In this document: in pieces, positions 12,214-28,439 of the stretch
How positions within the stretch are numbered: position 1 is the first letter of the stretch
Layout: every line of letters begins with the position of its first letter
Assembly (NCBI GenBank): GCA_944384105.1
Contig: CALWSC010000095.1
Coordinates: forward strand, 1 to 42,780
Reading direction: 5' to 3'
DNA: 42,780 nucleotides
DNA from: an uncultured Lachnospiraceae bacterium
GTDB lineage: Bacteria > Bacillota > Clostridia > Lachnospirales > Lachnospiraceae
The notes under the pieces: model-generated
What the model saw: the letters and a program-made list of their open reading frames with translations, nothing else
The model's database searches: none
What the model was told of the DNA's origin: nothing
Program-made: the position numbers and the translations under genes

Positions 12214-12252
12214 GAAAAGGCGCCCTGGATTTCTCCAAAGCGCCCTTGCTTT
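12214..12252 (-). promoter_or_regulatory. glnN leader: ANTAR-type hexaloop hairpin overlapping an intrinsic terminator
   Basis: On the minus strand AAAGC (12252-12248), loop AAGGGC (12247-12242) and GCTTT (12241-12237) form a 5-bp hairpin whose six-base loop has A at position 1 and G at position 4. The same loop starts the 5' arm of a 14-bp terminator (12247-12234 with 12229-12216, GAAA loop) ending in TTTTC. The two folds exclude each other. This matches the recognition rule of ANTAR antiterminators. A canonical second ANTAR hairpin is not evident. The T-tract is short. Confidence 0.7.
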
Positions 12253-12262
12253 TATGTGTAGT

Positions 12263-12292
12263 AGTATAAGCACAAACTTTGGAAAATGTCAA
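12263..12292 (-). promoter_or_regulatory. glnN-purF promoter (sigma-A type)
   Basis: Minus-strand -35 TTGACA (12292-12287), 18-base spacer, -10 TATACT (12268-12263). The predicted start near 12256 puts the hexaloop hairpin at the very 5' end of the RNA. It is divergent from the pyrG promoter, with 34 bases between the two -35 boxes. Confidence 0.85.
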
Positions 12293-12326
12293 GCACTTTT
12301 TTTGAGAAAAAATATTTTTTGGGGGA

Positions 12327-12355
12327 TTTACAAATCAGAAAAAATGGTTTATAGT
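12327..12355 (+). promoter_or_regulatory. pyrG-gltB-gltD promoter
   Basis: -35 TTTACA (12327-12332), 17-base spacer, -10 TATAGT (12350-12355). A start near 12362 gives a leader of about 100 bases containing the hexaloop hairpin and terminator. A TATACT at 12355-12360 overlaps but is spaced 22 bases from the -35. Confidence 0.65.
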
Positions 12356-12381
12356 ATACTGCATATTTAAAAGGCAGGAAA

Positions 12382-12429
12382 TGACAAAGGCGTCAGAACA
12401 GTATCAAAGACTGTTTTGGCGCCTTTTTT
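12382..12429 (+). promoter_or_regulatory. pyrG leader: ANTAR-type hexaloop hairpin overlapping an intrinsic terminator
   Basis: TGAC (12382-12385), loop AAAGGC (12386-12391) and GTCA (12392-12395) form a small hairpin with A1 and G4 in the loop. From the first loop base begins a 17-bp terminator stem (12386-12402 with 12410-12426, 7-base loop) followed by more T residues to 12429. The hairpin and terminator share 12386-12395, so only one can form. It lies 30 bases before pyrG. It should therefore act as an attenuator for pyrG and, through co-transcription, for gltB and gltD. Confidence 0.75.
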
Positions 12430-12459
12430 CTGATTCAAAAAGCAGGAGGGCGAAAATAG

Positions 12460-14079
12460 ATGGCAGTAAAATATGTATTTGTAACCGGCGGAGTTGTCTC
12501 AGGGTTAGGCAAAGGCATCACGGCGGCTTCCCTGGGGAGGCTGTTGAAGGCAAGAGGATATAAGGTGACAATGCAGAAGTTTGATCCCTATATAAATATT
12601 GATCCCGGAACTATGAATCCGATCCAGCATGGAGAGGTTTTTGTAACGGATGACGGCACGGAAACGGATCTCGATCTGGGACATTACGAGCGTTTTATAG
12701 ATGAAAGCCTTGACTTTAATTCCAATGTGACGACCGGAAAGATCTACTGGTCAGTGCTCCAGAAGGAGCGCCGCGGCGACTTCGGCGGCGGGACGGTGCA
12801 GGTAATCCCTCATATTACAAATGAAATTAAAAGCAGATTTTACCATTCTCCCAATCCGGAGGATGAGCGGATTGCGATCATAGAGGTGGGAGGAACTGTG
12901 GGTGATATTGAAAGCCAGCCCTTCCTCGAGGCGATCCGCCAGTTTCAGAATGAGGTGGGTAAGGAGAATGCAGTGTTGATTCATGTGACGCTGATTCCGT
13001 ATCTGAAGGCTTCCGGAGAGATGAAGACAAAGCCGACGCAGGCGAGCGTGAGAGAGCTGCAGGGGATGGGAATCCGCCCCGATATTCTTGTGTGCCGCTC
13101 GGAAAAGGAACTCTCCGGCGAGGTTCGGGATAAGATCGCGCTGTTCTGTAATGTTCCGAGCCGTCATGTGCTGCAGAATCTCGACGTTGAGTATCTGTAC
13201 GAGGCTCCGCTTGCAATGGAGAGAGAAAATCTCGCACAGGTTGTCTGTGAGTGCCTGAACCTGCCGTGCCCGAATCCGGATCTGCAGGACTGGATACAGA
13301 TGACGGAGGCGCTCAAAAACCCGCAGACGGAAGTCACGATCGCTCTGGTAGGCAAGTATATTCAGCTTCACGACGCGTATTTAAGCGTTGTTGAGGCTCT
13401 CAAGCATGGAGGTATTTCATGCCGTGCAAGCGTTCGGATTCAGTGGATTGACAGTGAGAAAATATCCCCGGATAATGCGGGAGAGCTGCTGGGCGGCGCC
13501 GATGGCATCCTTGTGCCGGGCGGATTTGGAAACAGAGGCACAGAAGGCATGATCTGTGCGGTACAATATGCCCGGACGCACGGGGTTCCGTTTCTCGGTA
13601 TCTGCCTGGGTATGCAGATGGCGATTGTGGAATTTGCCCGCCATGTGGCAGGATACAGCGACGCCAACAGCGCAGAGTTTGATACCGCAACCGGACATCC
13701 GGTTATTGCGCTGATGCCCGAGCAGAACGGGATTGAAAATATCGGCGGCACGCTTCGCCTGGGATCGTATCCATGCGTGCTTGCCGGGGACAGCCTGGCA
13801 TACCGTCTGTACGGACAGGCCGAAATACAGGAGCGCCACCGCCACAGATATGAGGTCAACAATGCGTACCGCGGGGCGCTTACGGAACACGGCATGAAGC
13901 TGTGCGGCACGTCCCCGGACGGAAGAATCGTGGAAATGGCGGAAATTCCGGAGCATCCGTTCTTCATCGGGACGCAGGGACATCCGGAATTTAAATCAAG
14001 GCCGAACCGCCCGCATCCTCTCTTTGCGGGATTTGTGCAGGCGGCTGTCCGGCAGAAATACAGCAGCGATAAAGATTGA
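12460..14079 (+). CDS. pyrG: CTP synthase
   Basis: 539 residues. It makes CTP from UTP, ATP and glutamine. The N-terminal synthase domain starts [17 protein letters not shown] (P-loop-like) and has the [14 protein letters not shown] segment. The C-terminal class I glutaminase domain has the nucleophile Cys in GICLGMQMA and the late [11 protein letters not shown] His/Glu pair. GGAGG precedes ATG 12460. It heads an operon with gltB (21 bases downstream) and gltD. CTP synthase heading a glutamate synthase operon is an uncommon grouping that makes sense if the leader responds to glutamine supply. Confidence 0.98.
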
Positions 14080-14100
14080 TAAACGGAAAGGAGATAACAT

Positions 14101-17100
14101 ATGCAGAAGAATTGCGGATTATACCAGGAACAGTTTGAACACGACAACTGCGGAATCGGCGCAGTCGTCAATATAAAGGGTGTAAAATCCCGTGCCGCTG
14201 TGGAGAACGCCCTTCGGATTGTGGAACATCTCGAGCACCGTGCGGGAAAAGACGCGGAAGGAAAGGCCGGAGACGGTGTCGGTATCCTGCTGCAGATTTC
14301 TCACAGATTTTTCTCCAACGCCTGCCGGCAGGCGCAGATTCCGATCGGAGGCGAGAGAGAATACGGTGTGGCAATGGTCTTCTTTCCGCAGGATGAGTTA
14401 AAGAAAAATCAGGCGAAGAAGATGTTTGAGATTATTGTGGAAAAAGAGGGAATGAAGTTTCTCGGATGGAGAGAAGTTCCCGTGGAGCCGCAGGTGCTCG
14501 GACAGAAGGCACGCGACTGTATGCCGTGCATTCTCCAGGCATTTATCCGGCGTCCCGAGGAGGCACAGACAGATCTTGAATTCGACCGCCGGCTCTACAT
14601 AGCCCGCAGGGTCTTTGAGCAGAGCAGTGAGAATACGTACGTCGCTTCCATGTCCTGCCGCACAATCGTCTATAAGGGAATGTTTCTTGTAAATCAGCTG
14701 CGCCTTTTCTTCCCGGATCTGCAGGCGGAAGACTATGAGTCTGCAATCGCGCTTGTACACTCAAGATTCAGCACGAACACAAATCCGAGCTGGCAGAGGG
14801 CGCATCCGAACCGCCTGATTGTACACAACGGCGAGATCAATACGATCCGCGGCAATGCCGACAAGATGCTGGCGCGTGAGGAGACGATGGAATCTCCGTA
14901 TCTGAAAGGGCAGATGCACAAGGTTCTGCCGGTTGTCAATACCGCGGGTTCTGACTCCGCGATGCTTGATAATACACTGGAATTTCTCATGATGAGCGGC
15001 ATGGAGCTTCCGCTCGCCGTCATGATTACAATACCGGAGCCGTGGGCGAACAATCAGACCATGTCTCAGGAGAAGAGAGACTTCTATCAGTATTATGCGA
15101 CTATGATGGAGCCGTGGGATGGTCCCGCGTCTATCCTGTTCTCTGACGGCGATGTGATGGGAGCCGTGCTTGACCGGAACGGTCTGCGCCCGTCCCGCTA
15201 CTACATTACAAAGGACGGAAATATGATCCTCTCCTCCGAGGTGGGCGTGCTGGATATTCCGGAGGAAGAGATTGTGATAAAAGAGCGGCTGCATCCGGGC
15301 AAGATTCTTCTGGTGGATACCGTGAAAGGCAAAGTATTTGGAGACGAGGAGCTTAAGGAATATTATGCGAAGCGCCAGCCGTACGGGGAGTGGCTGGACA
15401 GCAGTCTCGTGCAGCTCAAAGATATTAAAATCCCCAACAAGAAAGTGCCGGGCTATACGAGAGAGGAGCTCGCAAGGCTGCAGAAGGCATTCGGCTACAC
15501 CTACGAGGAATACCGCACCTCGATTCGGAATATGGCACTGAACGGCGCCGAGGGAATTGCGGCCATGGGCGTGGATACGCCGCTTTCTGTGCTCTCAAAG
15601 CAGCATCAGCCGCTGTTTCATTACTTTAAGCAGCTTTTTGCACAGGTGACGAACCCGCCGATTGACGCTATCCGTGAGGAGATCGTGACATCCACTGCCG
15701 TGTATGTGGGAGAGGACGGCAACCTGCTTGAGGAAAAGCCGGAGAACTGCCAGGTGTTAAAGGTCAATAATCCGATTCTCACAAACACGGATATGCTGAA
15801 AATCAAAAGCATGCAGGTGCCGGGCTTCAAGGTCGCAGTCGTGCCGATTACCTATTATAAGAGTACAAACTTAAAGCGTGCAATCGAGCGGCTCTTTGTG
15901 GAGGTTGACAAAGCGCACCATGACGGAGCAAACATTCTCGTTCTGTCCGACCGCGGCGTGGATGAAAACCACGTTCCGATGCCTTCCCTGCTCGCCGTAT
16001 CTGCAGTGCATCAGCATCTTGTAAAGACAAAGAAGCGCACCTCGCTTGCCGTTATCCTGGAATCCGGTGAGCCAAGAGAGGTACATCATTTTGCGACAAT
16101 CCTGGGCTACGGCGCATGTGCGGTGAATCCGTACCTGGCACTTGAGACGATCCGTGAGCTCATCGACGAGGAAATGCTCGATAAAGACTACTATGCTGCG
16201 GTTGATGACTATTGCGCGGCAGTGCTCCACGGCATTGTAAAAATCGCGTCAAAGATGGGAATTTCCACGATCCAGTCGTATCAGGGTTCCCAGATCTTTG
16301 AGGCGATCGGTATTTCGAAAGAGGTGATTGACCAGTATTTTACCAACACAGTCAGCCGGGTGGGAGGCATCACGCTTGACGATATCGCGGCGGATATGGA
16401 TGCCATGCATTCGAAGGCATTTGATCCGCTGGGACTCTCCGTTGACCTGACACTGGAGAGCGTCGGACGCCATAAGATGCGAAGCGGCAAAGAGGAGCAC
16501 CGCTATAATCCGCAGACGATTCATCTGCTTCAGCAGTCAACGAGAACCGGAAGTTATGAAATGTTTAAGGAGTACACCAAGCTTGTTGACCGCGAGGAGA
16601 CGGGAAACCTGAGAAATCTTCTCGATTTTGCCTATCCGGAGCATGGAATCAGCATTGATGAGGTGGAGAGCGTCGACTCTATCGTAACGCGCTTTAAGAC
16701 GGGAGCCATGTCTTATGGCTCGATCTCCCAGGAGGCGCACGAGACACTGGCTCTTGCAATGAACATGCTTCACGGCAAGTCCAACACCGGTGAGGGCGGT
16801 GAGAGCGAGGAGCGTCTTGACTCTGCGGGCACGGATCATGACCGCTGCTCCGCGATCAAGCAGGTAGCGTCCGGACGGTTCGGTGTGACGAGCAGATATC
16901 TCGTGAGTGCAAAGGAAATCCAGATCAAGATGGCGCAGGGCGCAAAGCCTGGCGAGGGCGGACATCTCCCGGCGAGAAAGGTTTACCCGTGGATCGCGAA
17001 GACGCGTCATTCGACACCAGGCGTCAGCCTGATTTCCCCGCCGCCGCATCACGATATTTATTCCATCGAGGATCTGGCGCAGCTCATTTATGACCTGAAG

Positions 17101-18630
17101 AATGCAAATAAGTATGCGAGAATCTCCGTAAAGCTTGTCTCTGAGGCTGGAGTGGGAACGGTTGCGGCAGGTGTGGCAAAAGCCGGCGCACAGGTTATCC
17201 TGATCTCCGGATACGACGGAGGTACGGGAGCTGCACCGCGGAGCTCCATCCATCACGCAGGTCTGCCCTGGGAGCTGGGACTCTCAGAGACCCACCAAAC
17301 GCTGATCCAGAACGGACTTCGCGACCGCGTCGTCATCGAGACGGACGGAAAGCTGATGAGCGGCAGGGATGTAGCTATCGCAGCGCTTCTGGGAGCGGAG
17401 GAATTCGGATTTGCGACGGCGCCGCTTGTGACGATGGGCTGCGTGATGATGCGCGTCTGCAATCTCGATACCTGTCCGGTCGGTGTCGCGACGCAGAATC
17501 CTGAGCTTCGCAGGCGTTTTACAGGAAAGCCGGAATACGTTGTCAACTTTATGCGCTTTATCGCACAGGAGCTTCGGGAATATATGGCAAAACTCGGTGT
17601 GCGCACGATTGATGAGATGGTGGGAAGGACGGATCTGCTGCAGCAGACTAAACGCCGGAGTAATCCGCACGGCATGAAGCTGGATCTGTCTGCCGTGCTG
17701 GCAAGTCCGACGAACGGTGCGGCATGCACGTTCCAGCCGGAGAAGGCATATAATTTCCACCTTGAGCAGACACTGGACGAGCGCGTACTCTTAAAGGTTC
17801 TCGATCTGGAAAAGGCAGAAGGACAGCGCCAGGAGATTTCCGTGAAGCTGACGAATACAGACCGCACGTTCGGAACACTGCTGGGAGCGGAGATTACAAG
17901 GCAGTATAAAGACGGCCTGCCAGAGGATTCCATCGTGGTTCGATGCACCGGAGCCGGCGGACAGAGCTTCGGAGCCTTCATCCCGAAGGGACTGACGCTC
18001 TCTTTAAGCGGGGACAGCAACGACTACTTCGGCAAGGGACTTTCAGGAGGAAAGCTTGCAGTATATCCTCCCGAGGAAGCTTCCTATGAGGCGGATGAGA
18101 ACATTATTGTGGGAAATGTGGCGCTCTATGGAGCCACAAGCGGCAGTGCCTATATCTGCGGCGTTGCCGGTGAGCGGTTTGCAGTCAGAAACTCCGGAGC
18201 GTATGCCGTTGTGGAAGGCGTCGGAGATCACGGCTGCGAGTACATGACAGGCGGAAGAGTCGCAGTGCTCGGCAAGACCGGCAAGAACTTTGCCGCAGGA
18301 ATGAGCGGCGGAATCGCCTATGTGCTCGACGAGGAGAGCCGGCTGTACCGCAACATCAATAAGGAAATGATTTCGATTGAGAAAGTAGACAATAAATACG
18401 ACCAGCAGGAGCTTTACGCTATGATCGAGAAGCATACAGAGGCGACAGGGTCCAAAAAGGGGAGAAAAATTCTCGAAAATTTTGAGGAGTATCTGCCCAA
18501 ATTTAAGAAAATCATACCGAATGATTACAAAAGAATGCTGCAGCTTGCCACTAAATTTGAAGAGAGAGGCTTGAGCAGCGAACAGGCACAGATTGAAGCG
18601 TTTTACGAGGCCATGGAGCAGAAGAGATAG
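14101..18630 (+). CDS. gltB: glutamate synthase (GOGAT) large subunit
   Basis: 1509 residues, full length. It converts glutamine plus 2-oxoglutarate to two glutamates using electrons from the small subunit. The precursor starts with 16 residues before the N-terminal glutaminase nucleophile Cys17 (HDNCGIGAVV). The central and FMN-binding synthase domains follow; the 3Fe-4S cysteines are in VCNLDTCPVGVATQ, and the C-terminal GXGXG-type beta-helix repeats are present. AAAGGAGA precedes ATG 14101. It is 21 bases after pyrG and 11 before gltD, so all three should be transcribed from 12327. Confidence 0.98.
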   Translation: MQKNCGLYQEQFEHDNCGIGAVVNIKGVKSRAAVENALRIVEHLEHRAGKDAEGKAGDGVGILLQISHRFFSNACRQAQIPIGGEREYGVAMVFFPQDELKKNQAKKMFEIIVEKEGMKFLGWREVPVEPQVLGQKARDCMPCILQAFIRRPEEAQTDLEFDRRLYIARRVFEQSSENTYVASMSCRTIVYKGMFLVNQLRLFFPDLQAEDYESAIALVHSRFSTNTNPSWQRAHPNRLIVHNGEINTIRGNADKMLAREETMESPYLKGQMHKVLPVVNTAGSDSAMLDNTLEFLMMSGMELPLAVMITIPEPWANNQTMSQEKRDFYQYYATMMEPWDGPASILFSDGDVMGAVLDRNGLRPSRYYITKDGNMILSSEVGVLDIPEEEIVIKERLHPGKILLVDTVKGKVFGDEELKEYYAKRQPYGEWLDSSLVQLKDIKIPNKKVPGYTREELARLQKAFGYTYEEYRTSIRNMALNGAEGIAAMGVDTPLSVLSKQHQPLFHYFKQLFAQVTNPPIDAIREEIVTSTAVYVGEDGNLLEEKPENCQVLKVNNPILTNTDMLKIKSMQVPGFKVAVVPITYYKSTNLKRAIERLFVEVDKAHHDGANILVLSDRGVDENHVPMPSLLAVSAVHQHLVKTKKRTSLAVILESGEPREVHHFATILGYGACAVNPYLALETIRELIDEEMLDKDYYAAVDDYCAAVLHGIVKIASKMGISTIQSYQGSQIFEAIGISKEVIDQYFTNTVSRVGGITLDDIAADMDAMHSKAFDPLGLSVDLTLESVGRHKMRSGKEEHRYNPQTIHLLQQSTRTGSYEMFKEYTKLVDREETGNLRNLLDFAYPEHGISIDEVESVDSIVTRFKTGAMSYGSISQEAHETLALAMNMLHGKSNTGEGGESEERLDSAGTDHDRCSAIKQVASGRFGVTSRYLVSAKEIQIKMAQGAKPGEGGHLPARKVYPWIAKTRHSTPGVSLISPPPHHDIYSIEDLAQLIYDLKNANKYARISVKLVSEAGVGTVAAGVAKAGAQVILISGYDGGTGAAPRSSIHHAGLPWELGLSETHQTLIQNGLRDRVVIETDGKLMSGRDVAIAALLGAEEFGFATAPLVTMGCVMMRVCNLDTCPVGVATQNPELRRRFTGKPEYVVNFMRFIAQELREYMAKLGVRTIDEMVGRTDLLQQTKRRSNPHGMKLDLSAVLASPTNGAACTFQPEKAYNFHLEQTLDERVLLKVLDLEKAEGQRQEISVKLTNTDRTFGTLLGAEITRQYKDGLPEDSIVVRCTGAGGQSFGAFIPKGLTLSLSGDSNDYFGKGLSGGKLAVYPPEEASYEADENIIVGNVALYGATSGSAYICGVAGERFAVRNSGAYAVVEGVGDHGCEYMTGGRVAVLGKTGKNFAAGMSGGIAYVLDEESRLYRNINKEMISIEKVDNKYDQQELYAMIEKHTEATGSKKGRKILENFEEYLPKFKKIIPNDYKRMLQLATKFEERGLSSEQAQIEAFYEAMEQKR

Positions 18631-18641: not shown

Positions 18642-20129
18642 GTGGGAAAGCCAACAGGATTTTTGGAATATGACAGAGAGACGGCCAGAGTAAAGCCGCC
18701 GCTTGAGAGAATTTCGGATTTTCGGGAGTTCCGCACGCCTCTGCCGCTGGAAAAGCAGAGGCTGCAGGGCGCAAGATGCATGGCGTGCGGTGTTCCCTTC
18801 TGCCAGGCGGGCGCCGTGATCGCGGGAATGGTCAGCGGCTGTCCGCTGCATAACCTGGTGCCGGAGACGAATGATCTGGTATACACAGGCAACTGGAAGC
18901 AGGCGTATGAACGATTAAAATCCACGCACAGCTTCCCGGAGTTTACCTGCCGCGTATGCCCGGCGCTGTGTGAGGCAGCCTGCACCTGCAATCTGAACGG
19001 GGAGCCGGTATCTACAAAGGAGAATGAACGCGCAATCATTGAGAAGGCATTCGCGGAGGGCTGGGTAAAACCCGAGATCCCTGCTGTGCGCACGGGCAAG
19101 AAGATAGCTGTAATCGGCAGCGGACCGTCCGGACTTGCGGCGGCTATGCAGTTAAACCGACGCGGACACAGCGTAACGGTATATGAGCGAAAGGATCGTA
19201 TCGGCGGCCTGCTGCGCTATGGTATTCCGAATATGAAGCTCGACAAGAGCGTGCTGGACCGCCGCCTTCGCCTGATGGAGGAAGAGGGCGTCCGCTTTGT
19301 GACAAACGCCGATATCGGGGCGGATATCGCTGCGGAGGAGCTGTTAAATGCATACGACCGCATCCTGCTCGCCTGCGGGGCATCCAATCCAAGAGACATC
19401 ACGGTTCCGGGCAGGGATGCCAAGGGCATCTATTTTGCCGTCGATTTCCTTTCCGGAGTGACAAAGAGCCTTCTCGACTCCAATCTCACAGACCGTAAGT
19501 TTGTGCCGGCAAAGGGAAAGCACGTTGTCGTGATCGGCGGGGGAGACACCGGAAATGACTGTGTCGGAACGGCGATCCGCCTGGGCGCAAAATCCGTGAC
19601 GCAGCTTGAAATGATGCCGAAAGCTCCGGATAAGCGCACTGCGGACAACCCCTGGCCTCAGTGGCCGAAGGTCTGCAAGACCGATTACGGACAGGAGGAG
19701 GCGATTGCAGTCTTCGGACACGACCCGAGAGTCTATGAGACGACAGTTACGGAATTTCTGACCGGAAAGAAGGGTGAGGTGCGCCGCGCAAAGACTGTAA
19801 AGCTTCAAAGTGTCGTTGATCCATCAACCGGCAGAAGGCGCATGGAACCTGTTCCCGGAACAGAAAAAATCATTCCTGCGGATATGGGGTTGATCGCAGC
19901 CGGATTTCTCGGAGCGCAGAAGTATGTTGCGGACGCTTTTCATGTGAAGTTAAATGAGCGCACAAATGTAAGCACCGTGGACGGCGGCTACTGCACCGGG
20001 AATCCCAAGGTCTTTGCTGCAGGCGATATGCGCAGAGGACAGTCTCTCGTTGTCCACGCGATTCACGAGGGCAGAGAAGCGGCAAAGGCGGTTGACGCGT
20101 CCCTGATGGGATACACAAACCTTCAGTAA
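18642..20129 (+). CDS. gltD: glutamate synthase small subunit
   Basis: 495 residues, starting with GTG at 18642 behind AGGAGG. It carries FAD and NAD(P)H-binding domains that pass electrons through Fe-S clusters to GltB. The N-terminal cluster cysteines are in CMACGVPFC and CRVCPALCEAACTC. The first dinucleotide fold is IAVIGSGPSGLAAA and the second is HVVVIGGGDTGNDC. The C-terminal AAGDMRRGQSLVV is the FAD-associated motif. There is no dedicated terminator after it; the glnA leader terminator (20189-20239) is the first one downstream, so read-through into glnA is possible when that terminator is disarmed. Confidence 0.97.
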   Translation: MGKPTGFLEYDRETARVKPPLERISDFREFRTPLPLEKQRLQGARCMACGVPFCQAGAVIAGMVSGCPLHNLVPETNDLVYTGNWKQAYERLKSTHSFPEFTCRVCPALCEAACTCNLNGEPVSTKENERAIIEKAFAEGWVKPEIPAVRTGKKIAVIGSGPSGLAAAMQLNRRGHSVTVYERKDRIGGLLRYGIPNMKLDKSVLDRRLRLMEEEGVRFVTNADIGADIAAEELLNAYDRILLACGASNPRDITVPGRDAKGIYFAVDFLSGVTKSLLDSNLTDRKFVPAKGKHVVVIGGGDTGNDCVGTAIRLGAKSVTQLEMMPKAPDKRTADNPWPQWPKVCKTDYGQEEAIAVFGHDPRVYETTVTEFLTGKKGEVRRAKTVKLQSVVDPSTGRRRMEPVPGTEKIIPADMGLIAAGFLGAQKYVADAFHVKLNERTNVSTVDGGYCTGNPKVFAAGDMRRGQSLVVHAIHEGREAAKAVDASLMGYTNLQ

Positions 20130-20146: not shown

Positions 20147-20175
20147 TTGCGCCGATAAGACAGCTTTGCTATAAT
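20147..20175 (+). promoter_or_regulatory. glnA operon promoter
   Basis: -35 TTGCGC (20147-20152), 17-base spacer, consensus -10 TATAAT (20170-20175). A start near 20182 places the hexaloop hairpin within the first few bases of the RNA, as for glnN and asnB. Confidence 0.7.
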
Positions 20176-20183: not shown

Positions 20184-20239
20184 GGGACAAGGGCGTCTTA
20201 GTGTGGAAATGAATTTTCCAGATTAAGTGCGCCCTTTTT
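20184..20239 (+). promoter_or_regulatory. glnA leader: ANTAR-type hexaloop hairpin overlapping an intrinsic terminator
   Basis: GGGAC (20184-20188), loop AAGGGC (20189-20194) and GTCTT (20195-20199) form a hairpin (three Watson-Crick and two G-U pairs). The loop has A1 and G4 and is identical to the glnN loop. From the first loop base starts the terminator: 20189-20200 pairs with 20224-20236 (one bulged T), TGGAAA (20204-20209) pairs with TTTCCA (20215-20220), and T residues run to 20239. The folds are mutually exclusive. The leader precedes glnA and the ANTAR gene itself, which suggests autoregulation. Confidence 0.75.
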
Positions 20240-20267: not shown

Positions 20268-21599
20268 ATGGAAAGAAATCTCAGAGAAGAGATACTGAAT
20301 CTGATTGAAGAAGAGGATGTGGAATTCATTCGTCTGCAGTTTACGGACATGTGCGGAAATATGAAAAATATAGCAATCACCGCCGGGCAGATGGAGAAAG
20401 CGTTTCATAATCACTGCGTCATCGAGGGCGCTCCGCTGCCGGGCTTCGGCGGGGAGAAGACGGGAGACTTATTTCTGGCACCGGATCTGTCAACGTTTGC
20501 GATCCTGCCATGGAGGCCGCAGCAGGGCAAGGTGGCGCGTCTGATCTGCGACATATTAAAAGCGGACGGGACTTTGCTGGAGGAGAGCCCGCGCTATATC
20601 TTAAAGAGGACGCTCGCTGAGGCGGCCAAGAAGGGCTGTACCTTTCAGGTGGGAACGGAGCTGGAATTCTTTCTGTTTCATACCGATGACAACGGGGTTC
20701 CCACGACTATTACGCATGAGCAGGCGGGATATCTCGATTTAAGTCCGCTCGATCTCGGGGAGAATGCCAGAAGAGACATGGTGCTGACGCTTGAGGATAT
20801 GGGAATTGAGGTTGAGTCCTCGCACCATGAGCTGGCGCCGGCGCAGCACGAAATCGATTTCCGCTATTCGGAGAGTTTAAAGGCAGCGGACGAGATCATG
20901 ACTGCAAAAATGGCGATGCGCACGATTGCAAAGCGTCATGGACTGCATGCGACGTTTATGCCGAAACCCGTCATGGGCGAGGAGGGTTCGGGAATGCATA
21001 TGTATCTGTCGCTGGAAAGGGACGGCAGAAATATTTTTGCTGATGACAGTGATCCGCTGGGATTAAGCCGCGAGGCGTACTGGTTCATGGGCGGCATTAT
21101 GCACCACATCAACGCACTGATGGCACTGACGAACCCGCTGGTTAATTCTTATAAGCGGCTGATCCCGGACTTTGAGGCTCCGGTCTGGGCGGCGTGGTCG
21201 GCGGAAAACGGCAGCCAGCTTATCCGCATCCCTTCGATCAAGGGGGCGCGCACGCGGCTGGAGCTTCGCTGGCCGGATCCGTCGGCAAATCCCTATCTTG
21301 TGCATGCTGCCTGCCTTGCCGCAGGATTGTGGGGAATGGAGCATAAGATTGATCCGCCCGCACAGGCACCCGCGAAGATTAAGCGGATGGACGAGGAGGA
21401 AATCGAGGCACTTGGTATCCGCCGGGTACCGCAGAGCCTTCCGGAAGCGCTTCTGTATCTGGAGAGAGACGAGCTGATGAGAGATGTTCTCGGGGAGACC
21501 TTCCTGCGCAGATATATCCGCGAGAAGAGAAGGGAATGGCAGTCTTACGCAGCAGAAGTGAGCGAATGGGAGATTCAGCGGTATCTCTACCGCATATGA
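20268..21599 (+). CDS. glnA: glutamine synthetase type I
   Basis: 443 residues, the size of Firmicute GSI-alpha enzymes. Motifs present are FTDMCGNMKN near the N-terminus, the metal-site glutamate in VGTELEFFLF, ELAPAQHEIDF, the glutamate-binding GMHMYLSL segment, and the NSYKRLIPDFEAP flap. AGGAGG precedes ATG 20268. Its stop codon overlaps the ATG of the ANTAR gene (ATGA at 21596-21599), so the two proteins are translationally coupled. Regulation appears to be through the leader rather than adenylylation, since no adenylyltransferase gene is near. Confidence 0.97.
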   Translation: MERNLREEILNLIEEEDVEFIRLQFTDMCGNMKNIAITAGQMEKAFHNHCVIEGAPLPGFGGEKTGDLFLAPDLSTFAILPWRPQQGKVARLICDILKADGTLLEESPRYILKRTLAEAAKKGCTFQVGTELEFFLFHTDDNGVPTTITHEQAGYLDLSPLDLGENARRDMVLTLEDMGIEVESSHHELAPAQHEIDFRYSESLKAADEIMTAKMAMRTIAKRHGLHATFMPKPVMGEEGSGMHMYLSLERDGRNIFADDSDPLGLSREAYWFMGGIMHHINALMALTNPLVNSYKRLIPDFEAPVWAAWSAENGSQLIRIPSIKGARTRLELRWPDPSANPYLVHAACLAAGLWGMEHKIDPPAQAPAKIKRMDEEEIEALGIRRVPQSLPEALLYLERDELMRDVLGETFLRRYIREKRREWQSYAAEVSEWEIQRYLYRI

Positions 21600-22141
21600 C
21601 GGGCATCATTCTTGCGTTTCCGAACGCGGAGGACGGCAGGAGGATACAGAACATTCTGATTCGCCACGGCTTTGAGGTATCGGCAGTATGTACGAATGCT
21701 TCACAGGTCTTTGACGCTGTGTCACAGATGGATGCCGGGCTGGTTATATCCGGCTGCCGGCTGAAGGATATGCACTGTACGCAGCTTCGCGAGTGTCTGC
21801 CGAAGGGGTTCGAGATGCTGCTCATAGCGTCTGCTGCCGCAGTCAGCCAGTTAAACCTCGGCTTTATGGCACTGACCCTTCCGCTGAAAGTGTATGATCT
21901 GGTCAACACCGTGCAGATGATGACAAGCCAGATTGTCCGCTCCAGAAAGACAAAGCGCCCCCGCAGGGTAAGGAGCGAGCAGGAGCGCAGAATAATCGGA
22001 GACGCAAAACAGCTCTTAATGGAAAGAAACCATCTCAGCGAGGAGGAGGCGTACCGGTATCTGCAGAAGCAGAGTATGGACATGGGAAGAAGTATGCTGG
22101 AGACGGCGCAGATGATTCTCGCGCTGATGGATAATGAATAA
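21596..22141 (+). CDS. ANTAR-domain RNA-binding antiterminator with pseudo-receiver
   Basis: 181 residues from ATG 21596, overlapping the glnA stop by three bases; earlier in-frame starts lie inside glnA. Residues 1-115 have a CheY-like pattern but lack the usual acidic pair (ILAFPNAED) and the phosphoacceptor (position about 52 reads VISGCRLKDM), so phosphorylation is unlikely. Residues about 125-179 are an ANTAR domain: GDAKQLLMERNHLSEEEAY, then LQKQSMDMGRSMLETA. ANTAR domains bind RNA hairpins with A1/G4 hexaloops and prevent terminator formation (NasR, AmiR and EutV are examples). A comparable glnA-linked regulator, NitR, is known in Clostridium saccharobutylicum. Likely targets here are the leaders at 12214, 12382, 20184 and 27392. 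What signal it senses is unknown. Confidence 0.93.
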   Translation: MTGIILAFPNAEDGRRIQNILIRHGFEVSAVCTNASQVFDAVSQMDAGLVISGCRLKDMHCTQLRECLPKGFEMLLIASAAAVSQLNLGFMALTLPLKVYDLVNTVQMMTSQIVRSRKTKRPRRVRSEQERRIIGDAKQLLMERNHLSEEEAYRYLQKQSMDMGRSMLETAQMILALMDNE

Positions 22142-22163: not shown

Positions 22164-23381
22164 ATGTTTAAGATTAATGACAACTATTTGAAACTGCCGG
22201 GAAGTTATCTGTTTTCCGAGATTGCGTCAAGAGTGGCAAAGTACCAGGGGGAACACCCGGAACAGACGATTATCCGCCTTGGTATCGGCGATGTGACGCA
22301 GCCGCTTGCGCCGGCGATCATAGACGCGCTGCATAAGGCGGTTGACGAGATGGGACATGCAGAGACCTTTCACGGTTACGCTCCCGATCTGGGATATGCA
22401 TTTCTGAGAGAAAAAATTTCGGAAAATGACTATAAAGCGAGAGGATGCGCGATCGCTCCGGATGAGATCTTTATCTCTGACGGTGCAAAGAGCGATTCCG
22501 GAAATATCCAGGAGATCTTCAGCCTGAATAACAAGGTTGCCGTGTGTGATCCCGTCTATCCGGTTTATGTAGATACTAATGTTATGGCGGGAAGAACAGG
22601 CTTATACCGCCCGGAGAAAGAGAATTTCGACGGTGTGATCTACATGCCGTGCACCGAGGCAAACGGATTCGTGCCGGATCTGCCCTCCGAGGTGCCGGAT
22701 CTTATCTATCTGTGCTTCCCGAACAATCCGACCGGCGGCGCGGCGACAATAGAGCAGCTTCAGCGCTGGGTGGATTATGCGAATAAAAACGGCGCGGTTA
22801 TCATTTATGATGCCGCATATGAGGCATATATTTCTGAGGAGCATATTCCTCACTCTATTTACGAGTGTGAGGGAGCCAGAACGTGCGCGATCGAGCTGAG
22901 AAGCTTCTCGAAAAATGCCGGATTTACCGGCGTACGTCTTGGCTTTACGGTTGTGCCGAAAGACTTAAAGGACAAAGACGGCGTAACGCTTCACAGTCTC
23001 TGGGCGAGACGCCACGGAACAAAATTTAACGGCGCGCCGTACATTGTGCAGAGAGCGGGAGAGGCCGTTTACTCTGAAGAGGGAAAAGCGCAGCTTAAAG
23101 AGCAGGTCGGCTATTACATGCGAAACGCCAAAGTCATCAGCGAGAGCCTGAAAAGCCTTGGCTATCAGGTGTCCGGAGGAGTCAACGCTCCGTATATCTG
23201 GCTGAAAACTCCGGGCAGAATGACATCCTGGGAATTCTTCGACCGCCTTCTTGAAAAGGCAAATGTAGTGGGAACACCCGGCTGCGGCTTTGGAGCCTGC
23301 GGAGAAGGATACTTCCGCCTGACTGCGTTCGGAACGTATGAAAATACGCTGGAGGCAATGGAGAGAATCGCGAAGATATAA
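22164..23381 (+). CDS. dapL: LL-diaminopimelate aminotransferase
   Basis: 405 residues. This PLP fold-I enzyme converts tetrahydrodipicolinate plus glutamate directly to LL-diaminopimelate, bypassing the acylated dap intermediates. The start [20 protein letters not shown] is typical for DapL. The PLP lysine is in [16 protein letters not shown], and the NNPTGG segment is present. Ribosome site AAAGGATGAGG; it lies 22 bases after the ANTAR gene with no terminator, so it should be the third gene of the glnA operon. It uses glutamate as amino donor, which may explain its place under nitrogen control. Confidence 0.95.
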
Positions 23382-23577: not shown

Positions 23578-23603
23578 TTTAAGAAGTGATTTTCAGCAAG
23601 AAC

Positions 23604-23670: not shown

Positions 23671-24807
23671 ATGGAACAAAATGTAAAGAAACTGGGATTT
23701 GGTCTAATGCGTCTGCCGCTGACAGATCCAAACAACGATGCCAGCATTGATGCAGAGACATTGAATAAGATGGTAGACGCATTTCTGGAACGGGGATTTA
23801 CATATTTTGATACTGCGTGGATGTACTGCGGGTTTCAGAGCGAATGTGCGATCCGGGAGGCACTGGTAAAGCGTCATCCGAGAGACAGCTATACGCTGGC
23901 GGATAAGTTGCATGCCGGATTTATCAAAAGTAAAGAGGATAGGGATAAGATTTTCCAGGAGCAGCTTAAGAAAACCGGTGTGGACTATTTTGATTATTAT
24001 CTTCTTCACGATGTGGGAACAGACCACTATAAAGTGTATGAGGATCTGGACTGCTTTCAGTGGCTGGAAGAAAAGAGGGCGCAGGGACTGGTGCGCCACA
24101 TCGGATTTTCTTTCCATGACCATGCGGAACTGTTGGACCGTGTGCTGACAGAACATCCGGAGGTAGAGTTTGTCCAGCTTCAGCTTAATTACCTGGATTG
24201 GGACAGCGAGGGCGTACAGTCCCGCAAATGTTATGAGACTGCCGTCAGACATGGAAAACCGGTGATTGTCATGGAACCGGTGAAGGGAGGAACACTGGCG
24301 CGCGTACCGGAATCTGTAGAGAAGATGTTCCGGGAATACAGCCCCAAAATGTCCGTCCCGTCCTGGGCGATTCGCTTCGCAGCCAGCCAGGAGCACGTAA
24401 TGATGGTCTTAAGCGGAATGAGCAATATGGAGCAGCTCACCGATAATATGAACTATATGTCTGATTTTCAGCCTCTGAACGGTGAAGAGCAGGCGCTTGT
24501 AAAAAAAGCGGTGGACATCATTAACAGTAATATCGCTGTTCCGTGTACCGGCTGTTCTTACTGTACGGAGGGATGTACGCAGCATATCGCCATTCCGAAG
24601 TATTTCTCGCTGTATAACGCCGATATGCAGGAAATCAAGGAAAAGGCATGGCGGCCGCAGGGAGAATATTATGACCGTCTGACGCTGACTTTCGGGAAAG
24701 CCAGCGACTGTCTGGAATGCGGACAGTGTGAGCAGGCATGCCCGCAGCATTTGCCCATTATACGGTATCTGAAGGATGTGGCGGCGCGGTTTGAAACACA
24801 GTCATAA
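23671..24807 (+). CDS. aldo/keto reductase with C-terminal 4Fe-4S domain
   Basis: 378 residues from ATG 23671, with GAGGTG about 7 bases upstream; a GTG two codons earlier is less well placed. The AKR barrel occupies about residues 1-275 (GFGLMRLPL start; catalytic Asp/Tyr region FDTAWMYCG). The C-terminus adds ferredoxin-like cysteine clusters CTGCSYCTEGC and CLECGQCEQACP. This fused type is widespread in anaerobic Clostridia and is probably a redox enzyme linked to ferredoxin rather than a simple NADPH carbonyl reductase. The substrate is unknown. The DUF362 gene follows 55 bases downstream on the same strand. Confidence 0.93.
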   Translation: MEQNVKKLGFGLMRLPLTDPNNDASIDAETLNKMVDAFLERGFTYFDTAWMYCGFQSECAIREALVKRHPRDSYTLADKLHAGFIKSKEDRDKIFQEQLKKTGVDYFDYYLLHDVGTDHYKVYEDLDCFQWLEEKRAQGLVRHIGFSFHDHAELLDRVLTEHPEVEFVQLQLNYLDWDSEGVQSRKCYETAVRHGKPVIVMEPVKGGTLARVPESVEKMFREYSPKMSVPSWAIRFAASQEHVMMVLSGMSNMEQLTDNMNYMSDFQPLNGEEQALVKKAVDIINSNIAVPCTGCSYCTEGCTQHIAIPKYFSLYNADMQEIKEKAWRPQGEYYDRLTLTFGKASDCLECGQCEQACPQHLPIIRYLKDVAARFETQS

Positions 24808-24862
24808 TTACCAGAGCAGTTCAAAACTTTTCAAAATATATGAACAGGAAAGGATGAGGAGT

Positions 24863-25729
24863 ATGGAACCGTCGAAAGTATACTTTCTAAAGGAGATTAC
24901 ACCGGAAAATCTGGTCAGGATTTACGATGCGCTGCAGACTGCCCTTCCGGGAAAGATTGCAGTAAAGCTTCATTCCGGAGAAGAGGGCAATCAGAATTAC
25001 ATGAAGCCGGAATTTGTGAAAGCTCTGATTGACCATGTGCACGGCACAGTCGTGGAGTGCAATACCGCCTATAGCGGTGAGCGCAACACGACGGAAAAGC
25101 ATGCGGCTCTGATGAAAAATCACGGCTGGAGCAAATATTTCGACGTGGACATTATGGATGCCGAGGGACCGGATCTTGAACTTGCGGTTGAGAACGGACT
25201 GCAGATTAAGACAAATTATGTCGGAAAGCATATGGCAGACTATGACTCCATGCTGGTGCTGTCTCACTTTAAGGGACACCCGATGGGAGGCTACGGCGGA
25301 GCGTTAAAGCAGCTCTCGATCGGCTGCGCTTCCTCTCACGGAAAGGCGAATATCCACGGAGCCGGTGAGCCTGACAAGATGTGGAGCACAGAGCAGAACA
25401 GATTTCTTGAGGCAATGGCTGATGCGGCGAAGACAGTAGCGGATTATTTTAAGGACAAGATTGTCTACATCAATGTGATGTGCAACCTCTCCGTAGACTG
25501 CGACTGCTGCGCTGTGGCGGAAGACCCCTGCATGAAGGATATCGGAATCCTTGCGAGCCTCGATCCTGTGGCACTTGATCAGGCATGCATCGATCTGATC
25601 TATCAGTCTGATGATCCGGGAAAAGGTCATTTCATCGAGCGCGTGGAGAGCCGAAACGGTATTCACACGATCGAAGCAGCGGCACAGCTCGGAATGGGAA
25701 GCAGAACGTACGATCTGGTTTCCCTCTGA
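24863..25729 (+). CDS. DUF362 domain-containing protein
   Basis: 288 residues from ATG 24863, placed about 9 bases after AGGAAAGG; an ATG at 24854 is a possible alternative. The sequence carries the DUF362 pattern: AVKLHSGEEGN near the start, LSHFKGHPMGGYGGALKQL, GCASSHGK, and a cysteine-rich DCDCCAVAEDPCMKD segment that could hold an Fe-S cluster. Such proteins are often annotated as Fe-S centre proteins, but their reaction is not established. It lies behind the Fe-S aldo/keto reductase, suggesting a shared redox role, and ends at a GC-rich terminator. Confidence 0.88.
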   Translation: MEPSKVYFLKEITPENLVRIYDALQTALPGKIAVKLHSGEEGNQNYMKPEFVKALIDHVHGTVVECNTAYSGERNTTEKHAALMKNHGWSKYFDVDIMDAEGPDLELAVENGLQIKTNYVGKHMADYDSMLVLSHFKGHPMGGYGGALKQLSIGCASSHGKANIHGAGEPDKMWSTEQNRFLEAMADAAKTVADYFKDKIVYINVMCNLSVDCDCCAVAEDPCMKDIGILASLDPVALDQACIDLIYQSDDPGKGHFIERVESRNGIHTIEAAAQLGMGSRTYDLVSL

Positions 25730-25746
25730 TTGATAATCAAAATATA

Positions 25747-25779
25747 ACAGCGCCGCCCGGCGGGGACGGCGCTGTTTTT
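25747..25779. terminator. GC-rich terminator between DUF362 gene and asnB
   Basis: ACAGCGCCG (25747-25755) pairs perfectly with CGGCGCTGT (25767-25775), followed by TTTTT on the plus strand. On the minus strand the stem is followed by TATATTTT, so it may also serve the convergent asnB. Confidence 0.88.
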
Positions 25780-25783
25780 GTGC

Positions 25784-27364
25784 CTATTTTCCGCTGTCTC
25801 CATAATTGGAAAGCACCCGCGCCGACGGATCGTTTACATCGCATCCTTTCCAGTTCTTGTTCGGCATCCAGAAATCCACAACCATGTGAGACTGTCCCGG
25901 ATAAAAACGCTCGAAGATCTCGCGGTATAACAGTGACTCTTTCGTAAAGGGTTTCGCATGGCTGTACGCGCTGCATTTCTGTTCAAATTCCGCGTCACTG
26001 TAGAGTTCTTCCGCGTACGCTTTCAGATCGTCGACGAGAGAGTGGCCGACTGCGTCGGAGAACGCGGCCTTCTCGCGCATCAGAATATTATATGGAAGAT
26101 AATCCCCTTCAAAAGCGTGGCGAAGCAGATATTTTCCCTTATGATACACATTCATTTTTTTCGCCGGATCGATGGCCATAACGTAGGAAACAAAATCCAG
26201 ATCGCCGAAAGGAACTCTTGCCTCCATAGAGTGGACGCTGATGCAGCGGTCCGCGCGCAGAACATCGTACATATACAGCTCCCGCACTCTCTTGACAGAT
26301 TCTTTTTGAAATTCTTCCGGCGAGGGGGCAAAATCCGTGTATTTATATCCGAACAGTTCATCGGAGATTTCTCCGGTCATCAGCACCCGGATATCCGTCT
26401 GCTCGTGAATTGCCTTACAGATCAGATACATTCCCATAGAGGCTCGAATAGTGGTGATATCATACGTTCCAAGCGCCTGGATTACCTCCGGCAGGGCATT
26501 GATAACCTGTTCTCTGGTGATGATGACTTCCGTGTGTTCGCTTCCGATATAATCGGCCACCTCTTTTGCATACTTCAGGTCGATGGCATCCGTTTCCATG
26601 CCGATGGCAAATGTCCGGATCGGGCGTTTCAGCAGCTTGGAGGCAATGGCGCAGACCAGGGAGGAGTCCAGCCCGCCGCTCAGCAGAAATCCCAAGGGAG
26701 CGTCGGAATCCAGTCTTTTTTTCACGCCTGCGATCAGCTTGCTGCGGATGTTGGCGCAGATTGTCTCGAGATCATCCGAAAGGACTTCTTTCACTGCCGT
26801 GATATCCCGATAACAGATAAAATTCCCATCTTTATAGTAGTGACCGGGCGGAAACGGGTAAATTTTATCCGCAAGTCCCACGAGATTCTTGGCTTCGCTG
26901 GCGAACAGGATCGCTCCCCGGCTGTCATATCCATAGAACAGCGGGCGGATTCCGATGGGATCTCTTGCCGCTATATAAGACCCGGAAGCGCCGTCATAAA
27001 GGATCAGGGCAAATTCCGCGTCCAGAAGAGAGAACATCTGAAGACCGAACTCTTCATAGAGCGGAAGCAGGATCTCACAGTCGCTGTCGCTTTCAAAATG
27101 GTAGCCTTTGCGGATCAGGCGCTCTTTGAGAGAACGGAAGCCGTAGATCTCTCCGTTGCAGACAAGATAATTCTGGTGCAGCGAGAACGGCTGCATTCCC
27201 TCGGGCGTAAGCCCCATAATCGAAAGCCTCTGGAATCCCAGGTACCCGTTTCCTGTATTGATAATCTTCATCGCGTCAGGACCGCGCGACTCCGTTTTGG
27301 TAAATCCTTCCAGAAACCGTGTATAATCTGCCTCAGAGGAGCAGTAAGCCATAATCGAACACAT
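25784..27364 (-). CDS. asnB: asparagine synthase (glutamine-hydrolysing)
   Basis: 526 residues from the ATG at 27364. This start exposes Cys2 (MCSIMAYCSS) as the N-terminal glutaminase nucleophile and has GGGAGG about 10 bases upstream; a longer reading frame to 27547 would remove this and run into the upstream gene. The N-terminal Ntn domain has SRGPDAMK and LVCNGEIYGF. The synthetase domain has the PPi-loop LLSGGLDSSLV and the MTGEISDELFGYKY segment. It makes asparagine from aspartate, ATP and glutamine. It has its own promoter (27450-27478) and an ANTAR-type leader, and is convergent with the DUF362 gene. Confidence 0.96.
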   Translation of the reverse strand: MCSIMAYCSSEADYTRFLEGFTKTESRGPDAMKIINTGNGYLGFQRLSIMGLTPEGMQPFSLHQNYLVCNGEIYGFRSLKERLIRKGYHFESDSDCEILLPLYEEFGLQMFSLLDAEFALILYDGASGSYIAARDPIGIRPLFYGYDSRGAILFASEAKNLVGLADKIYPFPPGHYYKDGNFICYRDITAVKEVLSDDLETICANIRSKLIAGVKKRLDSDAPLGFLLSGGLDSSLVCAIASKLLKRPIRTFAIGMETDAIDLKYAKEVADYIGSEHTEVIITREQVINALPEVIQALGTYDITTIRASMGMYLICKAIHEQTDIRVLMTGEISDELFGYKYTDFAPSPEEFQKESVKRVRELYMYDVLRADRCISVHSMEARVPFGDLDFVSYVMAIDPAKKMNVYHKGKYLLRHAFEGDYLPYNILMREKAAFSDAVGHSLVDDLKAYAEELYSDAEFEQKCSAYSHAKPFTKESLLYREIFERFYPGQSHMVVDFWMPNKNWKGCDVNDPSARVLSNYGDSGK

Positions 27365-27391
27365 AAGTATCATCCTCCCGTGTGAATTTTG

Positions 27392-27439
27392 AAATAAAAA
27401 AGAGCAAAGATGCCTTTTTGTAAAGCACCTTTGCTCTTT
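27392..27439 (-). promoter_or_regulatory. asnB leader: ANTAR-type hexaloop hairpin inside an intrinsic terminator
   Basis: On the minus strand AGAGC (27437-27433), loop AAAGGT (27432-27427) and GCTTT (27426-27422) form a hairpin with A1 and G4 in a six-base loop closed by C-G. The same bases belong to a 15-bp terminator stem (27439-27425 with 27413-27399, 11-base loop) followed by T residues. It lies 28 bases upstream of the asnB start. It also is the first terminator after the dlt-like cluster, whose last stop codon is at 27447. Confidence 0.75.
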
Positions 27440-27446
27440 ATGAATC

Positions 27447-28439
27447 TTAATTATACGTGACGGAATCATCAAAGTCAAGCATTTTTGCAAACCTCTCTGT
27501 AAACAAATCTGCATACTCCCCATAGTAATGCCCGTCATAATCCACAAAATAGTTCAGATCCCGCAGATCTGAGAATTCCTCTATATAATTACAGTTATAA
27601 TATGCAACACCCAGCTCTTTGGAGAGCGCTGTAAAATACTGATTCGCTCCTGCGTATGCACTGGAGTATTCCTGAACGGTAACTTCCGGCACCGGAGTCG
27701 TGACTGCAATGAGGCGGATTCCCTCGCGCTCGCAGAGCTGTGCCAATCTGCGAAAATAAATTTCAGATTCCGGGGAGATATTGTCTCCCGTGTAAAGGAC
27801 GGGAATATCCTTTACTGACTTATCCGCGGGCTGCACGAGCCGTTCAATAAATCCGCTGCTGTGATAAATCTGTGCCGGATTCGCAAAGGAAGAGATACCG
27901 AAGTCTTTATATTCTTCGCTTCTCTTTTGAGATAAGGTGTTATTCACAGAAAAAATCTTACCCCGGTACAGATACCACGGAAACAGTGTATTGCGGAAGT
28001 CTCCGTCGAGAATCTTTGTCATCCAGTAGTGAAACTTCGTAAACGACGCCGGGAATTCCTGATATAATATCGCGAAGTCTGCTCCCTCGTTCGGCTCGGA
28101 CACAAAGTAGCCCGCGTCCAGCTCGTAGATTACCTGCTTTGGCTTATGGCCCGTCTCGCAGGCAAGCCGGACAATGTGGTAGGCGTCGATCGGATATTCG
28201 CCGCCAAGGCACTGATTTGTGCTGACAGTGCCGCAGACGGAATCGAACACCTCGGGATTCAGCCCGCATTTTCCGTGGGAACTTCCCACAAAAATCGTGT
28301 CGTGATCCTCTGAGATAAGATGGTGTATATCCACCCGGCTGTAGGTGTAGGGATACAGCGCGAAAGAGAGCAGGCTGTTGACTCCGATCACCAAGGCAAG
28401 CAGAAACGCCAGAACAGCGAACCGTTTAAAATTGCGCAT
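27447..28439 (-). CDS. DltD-like SGNH-fold membrane-anchored protein
   Basis: 330 residues with an N-terminal signal anchor (residues about 7-28, FAVLAFLLALVIGVNSLL), so the bulk is outside the cell. The SGNH block I motif is TIFVGSSHGKCGLNP (Ser53/Ser54) and a late Asp/His block is FVDYDGHYYGEY. These fit DltD/AlgX/AlgJ-type proteins, which help transfer acyl groups to surface polymers. Its start overlaps the end of the MBOAT gene by 14 bases, so they are coupled. It is the last gene of the dlt-like cluster. The exact reaction is unknown; in the canonical system DltD supports D-alanylation of teichoic acids. Confidence 0.8.
   Translation of the reverse strand: MRNFKRFAVLAFLLALVIGVNSLLSFALYPYTYSRVDIHHLISEDHDTIFVGSSHGKCGLNPEVFDSVCGTVSTNQCLGGEYPIDAYHIVRLACETGHKPKQVIYELDAGYFVSEPNEGADFAILYQEFPASFTKFHYWMTKILDGDFRNTLFPWYLYRGKIFSVNNTLSQKRSEEYKDFGISSFANPAQIYHSSGFIERLVQPADKSVKDIPVLYTGDNISPESEIYFRRLAQLCEREGIRLIAVTTPVPEVTVQEYSSAYAGANQYFTALSKELGVAYYNCNYIEEFSDLRDLNYFVDYDGHYYGEYADLFTERFAKMLDFDDSVTYN
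27450..27478 (-). promoter_or_regulatory. asnB promoter inside the end of the SGNH gene
   Basis: Minus-strand -35 TTGACT (27478-27473), 17-base spacer, consensus -10 TATAAT (27455-27450). It lies within the last codons of the upstream SGNH gene and overlaps its stop region. The predicted start near 27443 places the hexaloop hairpin at the RNA 5' end. Confidence 0.8.

Follow-up and report, generated by a model that had tools for sequence, protein, structure and literature searches.

A putative ANTAR attenuation regulon for glutamine economy with single-hairpin leaders in Lachnospiraceae

A stretch of 42,780 nucleotides (nt), referred to as the window, from an uncultured bacterium of the Lachnospiraceae, a family of major gut bacteria, was analysed (GenBank assembly GCA_944384105.1, contig CALWSC010000095.1, positions 1 to 42,780 of the forward strand). 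It carries glnA followed by the gene of an ANTAR-domain protein, here called NitR, and four leaders, preceding glnN, pyrG, glnA and asnB, in which a small hexaloop hairpin overlaps an intrinsic terminator. Judged from the sequence, the leaders very probably (roughly 0.86) form a NitR-read transcription-attenuation regulon for glutamine economy, with a single hairpin near the 5' end of the RNA and a receiver that is not conventionally phosphorylatable. An ANTAR-read regulon had been suggested in the initial annotation of this DNA, and it remained by far the best reading in view of the one ANTAR gene detected, which is coupled to glnA, the loop code shared by the leaders, the overlapping terminators, a blindly found site before amtB-glnK and the presence of the code in relatives.

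Four leaders with one loop code

The four leaders of the window are given below. The bit scores are those of covariance model R1, which was built from 40 sites with these four among them.

12216..12292, minus strand: glnN leader; promoter TTGACA-18-TATACT at 12292-12263, hairpin 12252-12237, loop AAGGGC 12247-12242, terminator 12247-12216; 31.7 bits
12327..12430, plus strand: pyrG leader; promoter TTTACA-17-TATAGT at 12327-12355, hairpin 12382-12395, loop AAAGGC 12386-12391, terminator 12386-12426 plus T tract; 28.7 bits
20147..20239, plus strand: glnA leader; promoter TTGCGC-17-TATAAT at 20147-20175, hairpin 20184-20199, loop AAGGGC 20189-20194, terminator to the T tract at 20239; 41.9 bits
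27399..27478, minus strand: asnB leader; promoter TTGACT-17-TATAAT at 27478-27450, hairpin 27437-27422, loop AAAGGT 27432-27427, terminator 27439-27399; 28.8 bits

All hexaloops were found where the initial annotation had placed them, each closed by a C-G pair on a stem of 4-5 bp and accompanied by a promoter and a terminator. As it had also stated, loop position 1 is A and position 4 is G at all four sites, and the same holds for the amtB site described below. The pair beneath the C-G closure makes the top of the stem AC in two leaders (pyrG, glnA) and GC in the other two (glnN, asnB). The bases of the loop and of the stem's 3' half double as the 5' arm of an intrinsic terminator, and hairpin and terminator are mutually exclusive. 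Three of the four overlapping terminators were among the four with the most pairs in a mechanical scan; that of glnA, which has a longer apex, lay outside this list and was obtained by folding. The -35 box of the glnA promoter (TTGCGC) is weak. Since a promoter scan of the window was near chance level overall (21 promoter-like sites against 16 expected), the support for these promoters comes from their position and from relatives.

At gathering score, Rfam found no family in the whole window apart from a tRNA. In a lax Rfam run confined to 12150-12470 a Moco riboswitch was reported at 12182-12336 on the minus strand (25.8 bits against a cut-off of 36, E 0.00035); it spans the glnN promoter and was judged a chance match. 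Other leader types that were weighed but not adopted are the cyanobacterial glnA riboswitch, the T-box and antiterminators of the RAT type.

Loop specificity was assessed in the window and 80 loci of relatives (1.45 Mb) with a filter demanding C-G closure, at least three pairs and an overlapping terminator. AARGGY gave 53 sites, whereas eight altered loops passed through the same filter gave 0, 0, 0, 1, 1, 1, 2 and 2. The hexaloop is conserved in relatives; its absence there would, according to the initial annotation, have refuted the reading.

Forty of the 53 filtered sites, collected without a model, were aligned (alignment A2). Two sites that look doubtful (L042, L075) and two repeats of near-identical relatives (L045, L074) were left out first; A2 is also without L041, L048+513, L055+515, L062, L069, L082, L087, L100 and L111. 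The fourth stem pair, which the filter did not demand, is formed in 35 of the 40 sites and has changed on both sides in 14. Changes on both sides occur in four of the five stem pairs, two of those four being filter-required. A larger set comprises 191 sites from 166 sequences, the window included, and was pre-filtered for AARGGY, C-G closure and three pairs, so that its loop invariance is by construction. Here the fourth pair is formed in 176 sites against 113 expected from independent columns, part of the set having been found with R1, which also holds this pair. For the sixth pair the count is not raised (74 against 78.5 expected), and the stem is therefore taken as 4-5 bp. The top of the stem reads AC-GT at 126 sites, GC-GC at 37, GC-GT at 27 and CC-GG at one, the C-G pair being imposed by the filter. 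AC-GU closing pairs below the loop are needed by EutV, the ANTAR regulator of the eut genes of Enterococcus faecalis (PMC3369931). In A2 many glnA leaders of relatives have a G-rich stretch, often AGGG or GGGG, in the loop of the terminator.

Terminators do lie between divergent or tandem genes, and the leaders could simply terminate upstream genes or be constitutive attenuators of the ordinary kind, with loops that resemble the ANTAR code by chance. With the altered-loop control, the stem changes on both sides and the location just after promoters, this explanation is hardly credible.

The genome to which the window belongs (2.93 Mb, 78% complete) was searched with R1, which scored 150 of 538 first-look candidates. 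Beyond the four training sites, one more was found:

G000:C34:21314-21360: fifth site, agAC-AAGGGC-GTct, accompanied by a terminator and, 12 nt away, a weak promoter; E 0.31, outside the training set

It precedes the ammonium transporter gene amtB (Pfam 6e-122), which is followed by the P-II gene glnK. By score alone the site is negligible, but given its location before amtB-glnK no other single observation speaks as strongly for function. A Pfam search detected one ANTAR gene in this genome, nitR.

One hairpin near the predicted start of the RNA

As described by Ramesh et al., the ANTAR target consists of two hexaloop hairpins, 5-12 nt apart in the eut genes (PMC3369931). Induction through EutV is cut by deletion of the first hairpin (P1), by a change of A1 or G4 in either loop and by changes in the linker, and the genome searches of that study required both hairpins (PMC3369931). 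According to Walshe et al., the affinity of EutV for P1 and P2 alone is similar and antitermination needs the right linker; they proposed that P1 recruits and P2 antiterminates (PMC8934654). For NasR, binding to a lone hairpin takes a concentration of about 12 uM (PMC7496416).

The initial annotation had appealed to the established ANTAR recognition rule. The A1/G4 loop is indeed present, but the rule covers a dual hairpin of which both parts are needed, and here there is one. With the RNA start predicted 7 nt after the -10 box, the RNA before the loop is about 7 nt long in glnA, 9 in glnN, 11 in asnB and 24 in pyrG. Three of the four window transcripts have no room for P1, the second hairpin that defines the known ANTAR target, and none was seen; nor was a P1 seen in the pyrG leader, the only one with about 24 nt before the loop.

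A similar arrangement was found in the 191-site set, in which a strong promoter was sought within 110 nt of the loop. Such a promoter is present at 140 sites, against 10.9 in resampled sequence, and its -10 box ends 10-20 nt before the loop at 116 of the 140, against 1.4. The predicted RNA before the loop is at most 12 nt long at 113 of these 140 sites and at least 17 nt long at 21; at 119 a minimal P1 has no room. Upstream P1-like hairpins are not enriched (12 of 191 against 18.6 +/- 3.9 in resampled sequence). Among 26 sites from 20 loci, mostly of other families of the order, an ANNGNN hairpin lies just upstream of 3, several of these sites being without a clear close promoter.

Because the described ANTAR targets are dual, the leaders could still be of the standard type if the true starts lay farther upstream than the promoters read here and a P1 stood in that upstream segment; the 21 sites with longer predicted RNA and the window's pyrG leader would favour this. 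The missing enrichment of P1-like hairpins, the close spacing of strong promoters and loops, the 7-11 nt available in three of the window leaders and the few ANNGNN hairpins in the order speak against it, and we regard an upstream P1 as quite unlikely.

Downstream of the hairpin, A1/G4 hexaloops were found at 42 of the 191 sites against about 19 in resampled sequence (2.2-fold). A role of such a downstream hairpin as P2 is considered unlikely: all hexaloop classes together are raised there 1.5-fold because the terminator apex is located there, and the C/C (5.6-fold) and G/C (3.7-fold) classes exceed A/G. Upstream of the promoters, TTTT and AAAA tracts separated by up to 2 nt occur at 30 of the 191 sites against 11 +/- 3 in resampled sequence, for instance before glnN in L170 and L179. 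These runs may represent an UP element or an additional binding site.

NitR and its putative targets

The genes of the window that bear on the regulon are the following.

8649..10043, minus strand: purF, amidophosphoribosyltransferase (NCBIfam TIGR01134, 508 bits)
10089..12188, minus strand: glnN, type III glutamine synthetase (Pfam GSIII_N, 9e-82)
12460..14079, plus strand: pyrG, CTP synthase (NCBIfam PRK05380, 840 bits)
14101..18630, plus strand: gltB, glutamate synthase large subunit (Pfam GATase_2, Glu_synthase, GXGXG)
18642..20129, plus strand: gltD, glutamate synthase small subunit (TIGR01317, 661 bits)
20268..21599, plus strand: glnA, type I glutamine synthetase (TIGR00653, 464 bits, over cut-off)
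21596..22141, plus strand: nitR, pseudo-receiver, coiled coil and ANTAR, 181 amino acids (Pfam ANTAR 1e-17)
22164..23381, plus strand: dapL, LL-diaminopimelate aminotransferase (TIGR03542, 606 bits)
25784..27364, minus strand: asnB, asparagine synthetase (PRK09431, 618 bits)

The start codon of nitR overlaps the stop codon of glnA (ATGA), and dapL begins 22 nt after nitR. The coupling of the regulator to glnA, recognised earlier in the window, holds in relatives: among the 80 named loci kept of 559 in a search for NitR orthologues, glnA lies directly upstream of nitR in all 80. About 45 nt separate the end of glnN from the start of purF, and no hairpin with arms of at least 6 was found in this gap (shorter arms were not tested). 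The short gaps and the absence of a hairpin of at least 6 pairs before purF make it likely that purF is co-transcribed with glnN and that dapL is the third gene of the glnA transcript. The initial annotation had counted both genes as regulon members. In the window their membership follows only from this presumed co-transcription; in relatives each can have a site of its own directly in front (purF in L149, dapL in L191 and L206). Beside asnB, at 27447-29958 on the minus strand, an MBOAT-type acyltransferase gene and a partner gene were recognised by eye.

The ANTAR domain of NitR scores 64 bits against a Pfam cut-off of 27. An AlphaFold2 model (predicted local distance difference test, pLDDT, 88; predicted template modelling score, pTM, 0.65) comprises a receiver, a coiled coil and an ANTAR bundle, with helices predicted at 99-119, 128-145, 149-163 and 167-179 and a three-helix ANTAR fold after the coiled coil. 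In a fold search the nearest solved structures were those of EutV alone and with RNA. The receiver has no phosphoacceptor: right after strand 3 (48-52), Gly53 is aligned with the Asp of the EutV sequence LVLMD, which we take to be the phosphoacceptor. Among 104 distinct orthologues this position holds Gly (88), Ser (13) or Ala (3), and in none is it Asp. As NitR would not be phosphorylated in the usual way, its signal presumably comes through the binding of a ligand or a partner. At the equivalent of EutV Met172 all 104 orthologues have Met; the roles of the EutV contact residues are known from the crystal study (PMC8934654).

In some genomes the place of NitR is taken by a second glnA-linked ANTAR subfamily, which has Asn (VIxIN) at the phosphoacceptor position (L251 and L253, and by eye L247, L248 and L249), and genomes with this subfamily carry the same RNA sites (L192, L193, L191, L186, L214, L243). 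In L252, from another family, an ANTAR protein has Asp at this position.

In a sample of 150 genomes of the family an ANTAR gene is present in 131, exactly one in 128 of these, and R1 matched 107 of the 150 at E ≤ 0.1, about 15 being expected by chance. Among the matches listed, 80 regions were fetched; most nitR-adjacent matches and lower-ranked ones were skipped. The 114 fetched loci (L112-L225, 5 of them without a strict site) contain 123 distinct strict sites, the five of the window's own genome included. The first genes behind these sites, among the matches listed and with tandem sites counted twice, are glnN (31), glnA (at least 20, undercounted because nitR-adjacent matches were mostly skipped), gltB (8, the labels at L205 and L217 being based on 24-31% identity), asnB (7), pyrG (6), dapL (2), purF (1) and others (48). 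The 43 scannable genes of the last group comprise those of P-II (10), ammonium transporter (8), circularly permuted ATP-grasp (5), glutamate dehydrogenase (gdhA, 3), ATP-binding cassette ATPase (3), the small chain of carbamoyl-phosphate synthase (carA, 2), PPDK_N (2) and amino-acid-binding proteins (2), with AsnA, DAP epimerase, EutA and more once each; some have no clear tie to nitrogen. The search for further copies with a covariance model, which the initial annotation had advised, thus gave one weak, blindly found site before amtB-glnK in the genome itself, and many sites before nitrogen genes in relatives.

The circularly permuted ATP-grasp genes lie behind the element in five genomes (L135, L152, L161, L201, L210), and the site before the EutA-like gene (L197, 307, plus strand) is reminiscent of the classical EutV targets. 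Two complete hairpin-terminator units in series, with the same code, precede asnB, amtB and gltB (L166, 3039 and 2989, minus strand; L171, 3036 and 2981, minus strand; L158, 307 and 348, plus strand).

The sites track ANTAR genes. In an order sample, the window's own genome included, sites at E ≤ 0.05 were found in 41 of 93 ANTAR-bearing genomes and in 1 of 53 without an ANTAR gene, the latter being no more than chance, and in the family sample at E ≤ 0.1 in 102 of 131 and 5 of 19, respectively; the p-values of 3e-9 and 2e-5 are overstated, since the genomes are kin to each other and the tests not independent.

It is conceivable that the hairpins are read by something other than NitR, such as a metabolite, a different RNA-binding antiterminator or reiterative initiation at the 5' end, with nitR a mere neighbour. 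In Bacillus subtilis, reiterative transcription at the 5' end controls pyrG, the ANTAR proteins in the published tests cited need two hairpins, and the sites also occur in genomes with the Asn-type subfamily. On the other side, the A1/G4 loop on a stem topped by AC-GU is the ANTAR signature, the sites follow the ANTAR genes, one code before a dozen unrelated genes is ill-suited to CTP-sensitive slippage, and the tRNA was the only Rfam family at gathering score in the window. Another reader of the hairpins appears improbable, and control by NitR is preferred.

Several observations weigh against this preference. A strict element lies within 320 nt of glnA in only 38 of the 80 glnA-nitR loci, 4 loci being cut there; inspected by eye, some of the remaining loci have no leader and some a variant loop. 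The 5 family genomes that match without a detected ANTAR gene exceed the about 2 expected by chance; in one of them (G137) the glnA contig (L177) is cut before the place of nitR. Conversely, 52 of the 93 ANTAR-bearing order genomes have no match at E ≤ 0.05. The kinship of the genomes weakens the co-occurrence tests, and the scores of the window leaders come from a model trained on them. At 51 of the 191 sites there is no strong promoter within 110 nt. EutV Lys147 is not kept in NitR, and the contact residue Tyr164 of EutV is replaced by His in 80 and by Phe in 4 of the 104 orthologues (Tyr in 20, the window's NitR included). Finally, a single-hairpin target contradicts the both-hairpins requirement reported, in the parts of the literature cited, for EutV in vivo and for NasR, unless NitR differs.

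Proposed mechanism and relation to known systems

In the proposed mechanism RNA polymerase would start, at the predicted start sites, a few bases before the 4-5 bp hairpin with its AARGGY hexaloop. By default a downstream CRCCYTT arm would pair with the loop and the stem's 3' half to form the intrinsic terminator, and transcription would stop about 40-70 nt from the start. By analogy with the ANTAR mechanism, NitR would bind and hold the hexaloop hairpin, no terminator would form and the operon would be read. NitR would be encoded on a transcript under its own control, that of glnA, and with one loop code per genome the targets would rise and fall together. These would be the makers of glutamine and importers of ammonium (glnA, glnN, amtB-glnK), the users of glutamine (gltBD, asnB, pyrG, purF) and dapL. 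Glutamine amidotransferase domains occur in glutamate synthase (GOGAT), AsnB, PyrG, PurF and CarA. With enzymes that make glutamine and enzymes that use it under one code, the regulon suits a candidate low-glutamine switch, which would raise every enzyme that must work at low substrate. From the coupling to glnA and the glnK target, our guess is that NitR receives its signal through glutamine synthetase or PII.

The system resembles EutV and its eut targets in the A1/G4 hexaloop, the C-G closing pair followed by A-U, the overlap with the terminator, the order of receiver, coiled coil and ANTAR, and the nearest fold (PMC3369931, PMC8934654). It differs from them in two respects: EutV acts on pairs of hairpins spaced 5-12 nt apart and requires both, whereas here there is one, close to the RNA's predicted 5' end or right at it; and EutV is phosphorylated by EutW, whereas NitR has no phosphoacceptor. 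Control by a partner instead of phosphorylation is described for the ANTAR proteins AmiR (by AmiC) and NasT (by NasS), although the AmiR leader is dual-hairpin, amiE being in the seed of PMC3369931. NitR of Clostridium acetobutylicum and its C. thermocellum homologue are likewise ANTAR proteins tied to ammonia assimilation and proposed to be antiterminators (PMC4676874); in the literature searched, as excerpted, no RNA target structure and no equally wide regulon were found for them. The Desulfotomaculum ANTAR nitrogen regulons also unite several nitrogen operons, glutamate synthase among them, under one ANTAR code (PMC3369931). They were found with a dual-hairpin model, and the excerpted main text of the survey, its tables apart, does not name CTP synthase, PurF, AsnB, DapL or GSIII; for the survey overall it does mention glutamine synthase, P-II and ammonium transporters (PMC3369931).

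The initial annotation had thought the cluster worth describing as new. It is less new than that, as nitR has been published before, and so has the control of glutamine and glutamate synthase genes by ANTAR proteins. The name NitR comes from Clostridium, where the gene order is glnA-nitR-gltAB. A literature search in which subscription journals were thinly covered found dual-hairpin systems only and no natural single-hairpin ANTAR target, and, with the same coverage, no ANTAR nitrogen regulator or regulon of Lachnospiraceae.

On balance we lean towards regarding the leaders as a second class of ANTAR target, in which one hexaloop hairpin forms the first bases of the transcript, no recruitment hairpin is present, and the reader is the unphosphorylatable, glnA-coupled NitR. 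This class would be the main glutamine-economy switch of Lachnospiraceae and their kin, invisible to dual-hairpin searches, with two units stacked in some operons. With a natural single-hairpin system the recruitment-hairpin model could be tested directly, and such a system bears on why EutV needs two hairpins yet seems, from the crystal study, unable to hold both at once (PMC8934654). If this is true, one ANTAR protein and a 16-base RNA element would give the nitrogen regulator and its targets for most of the genera sampled.

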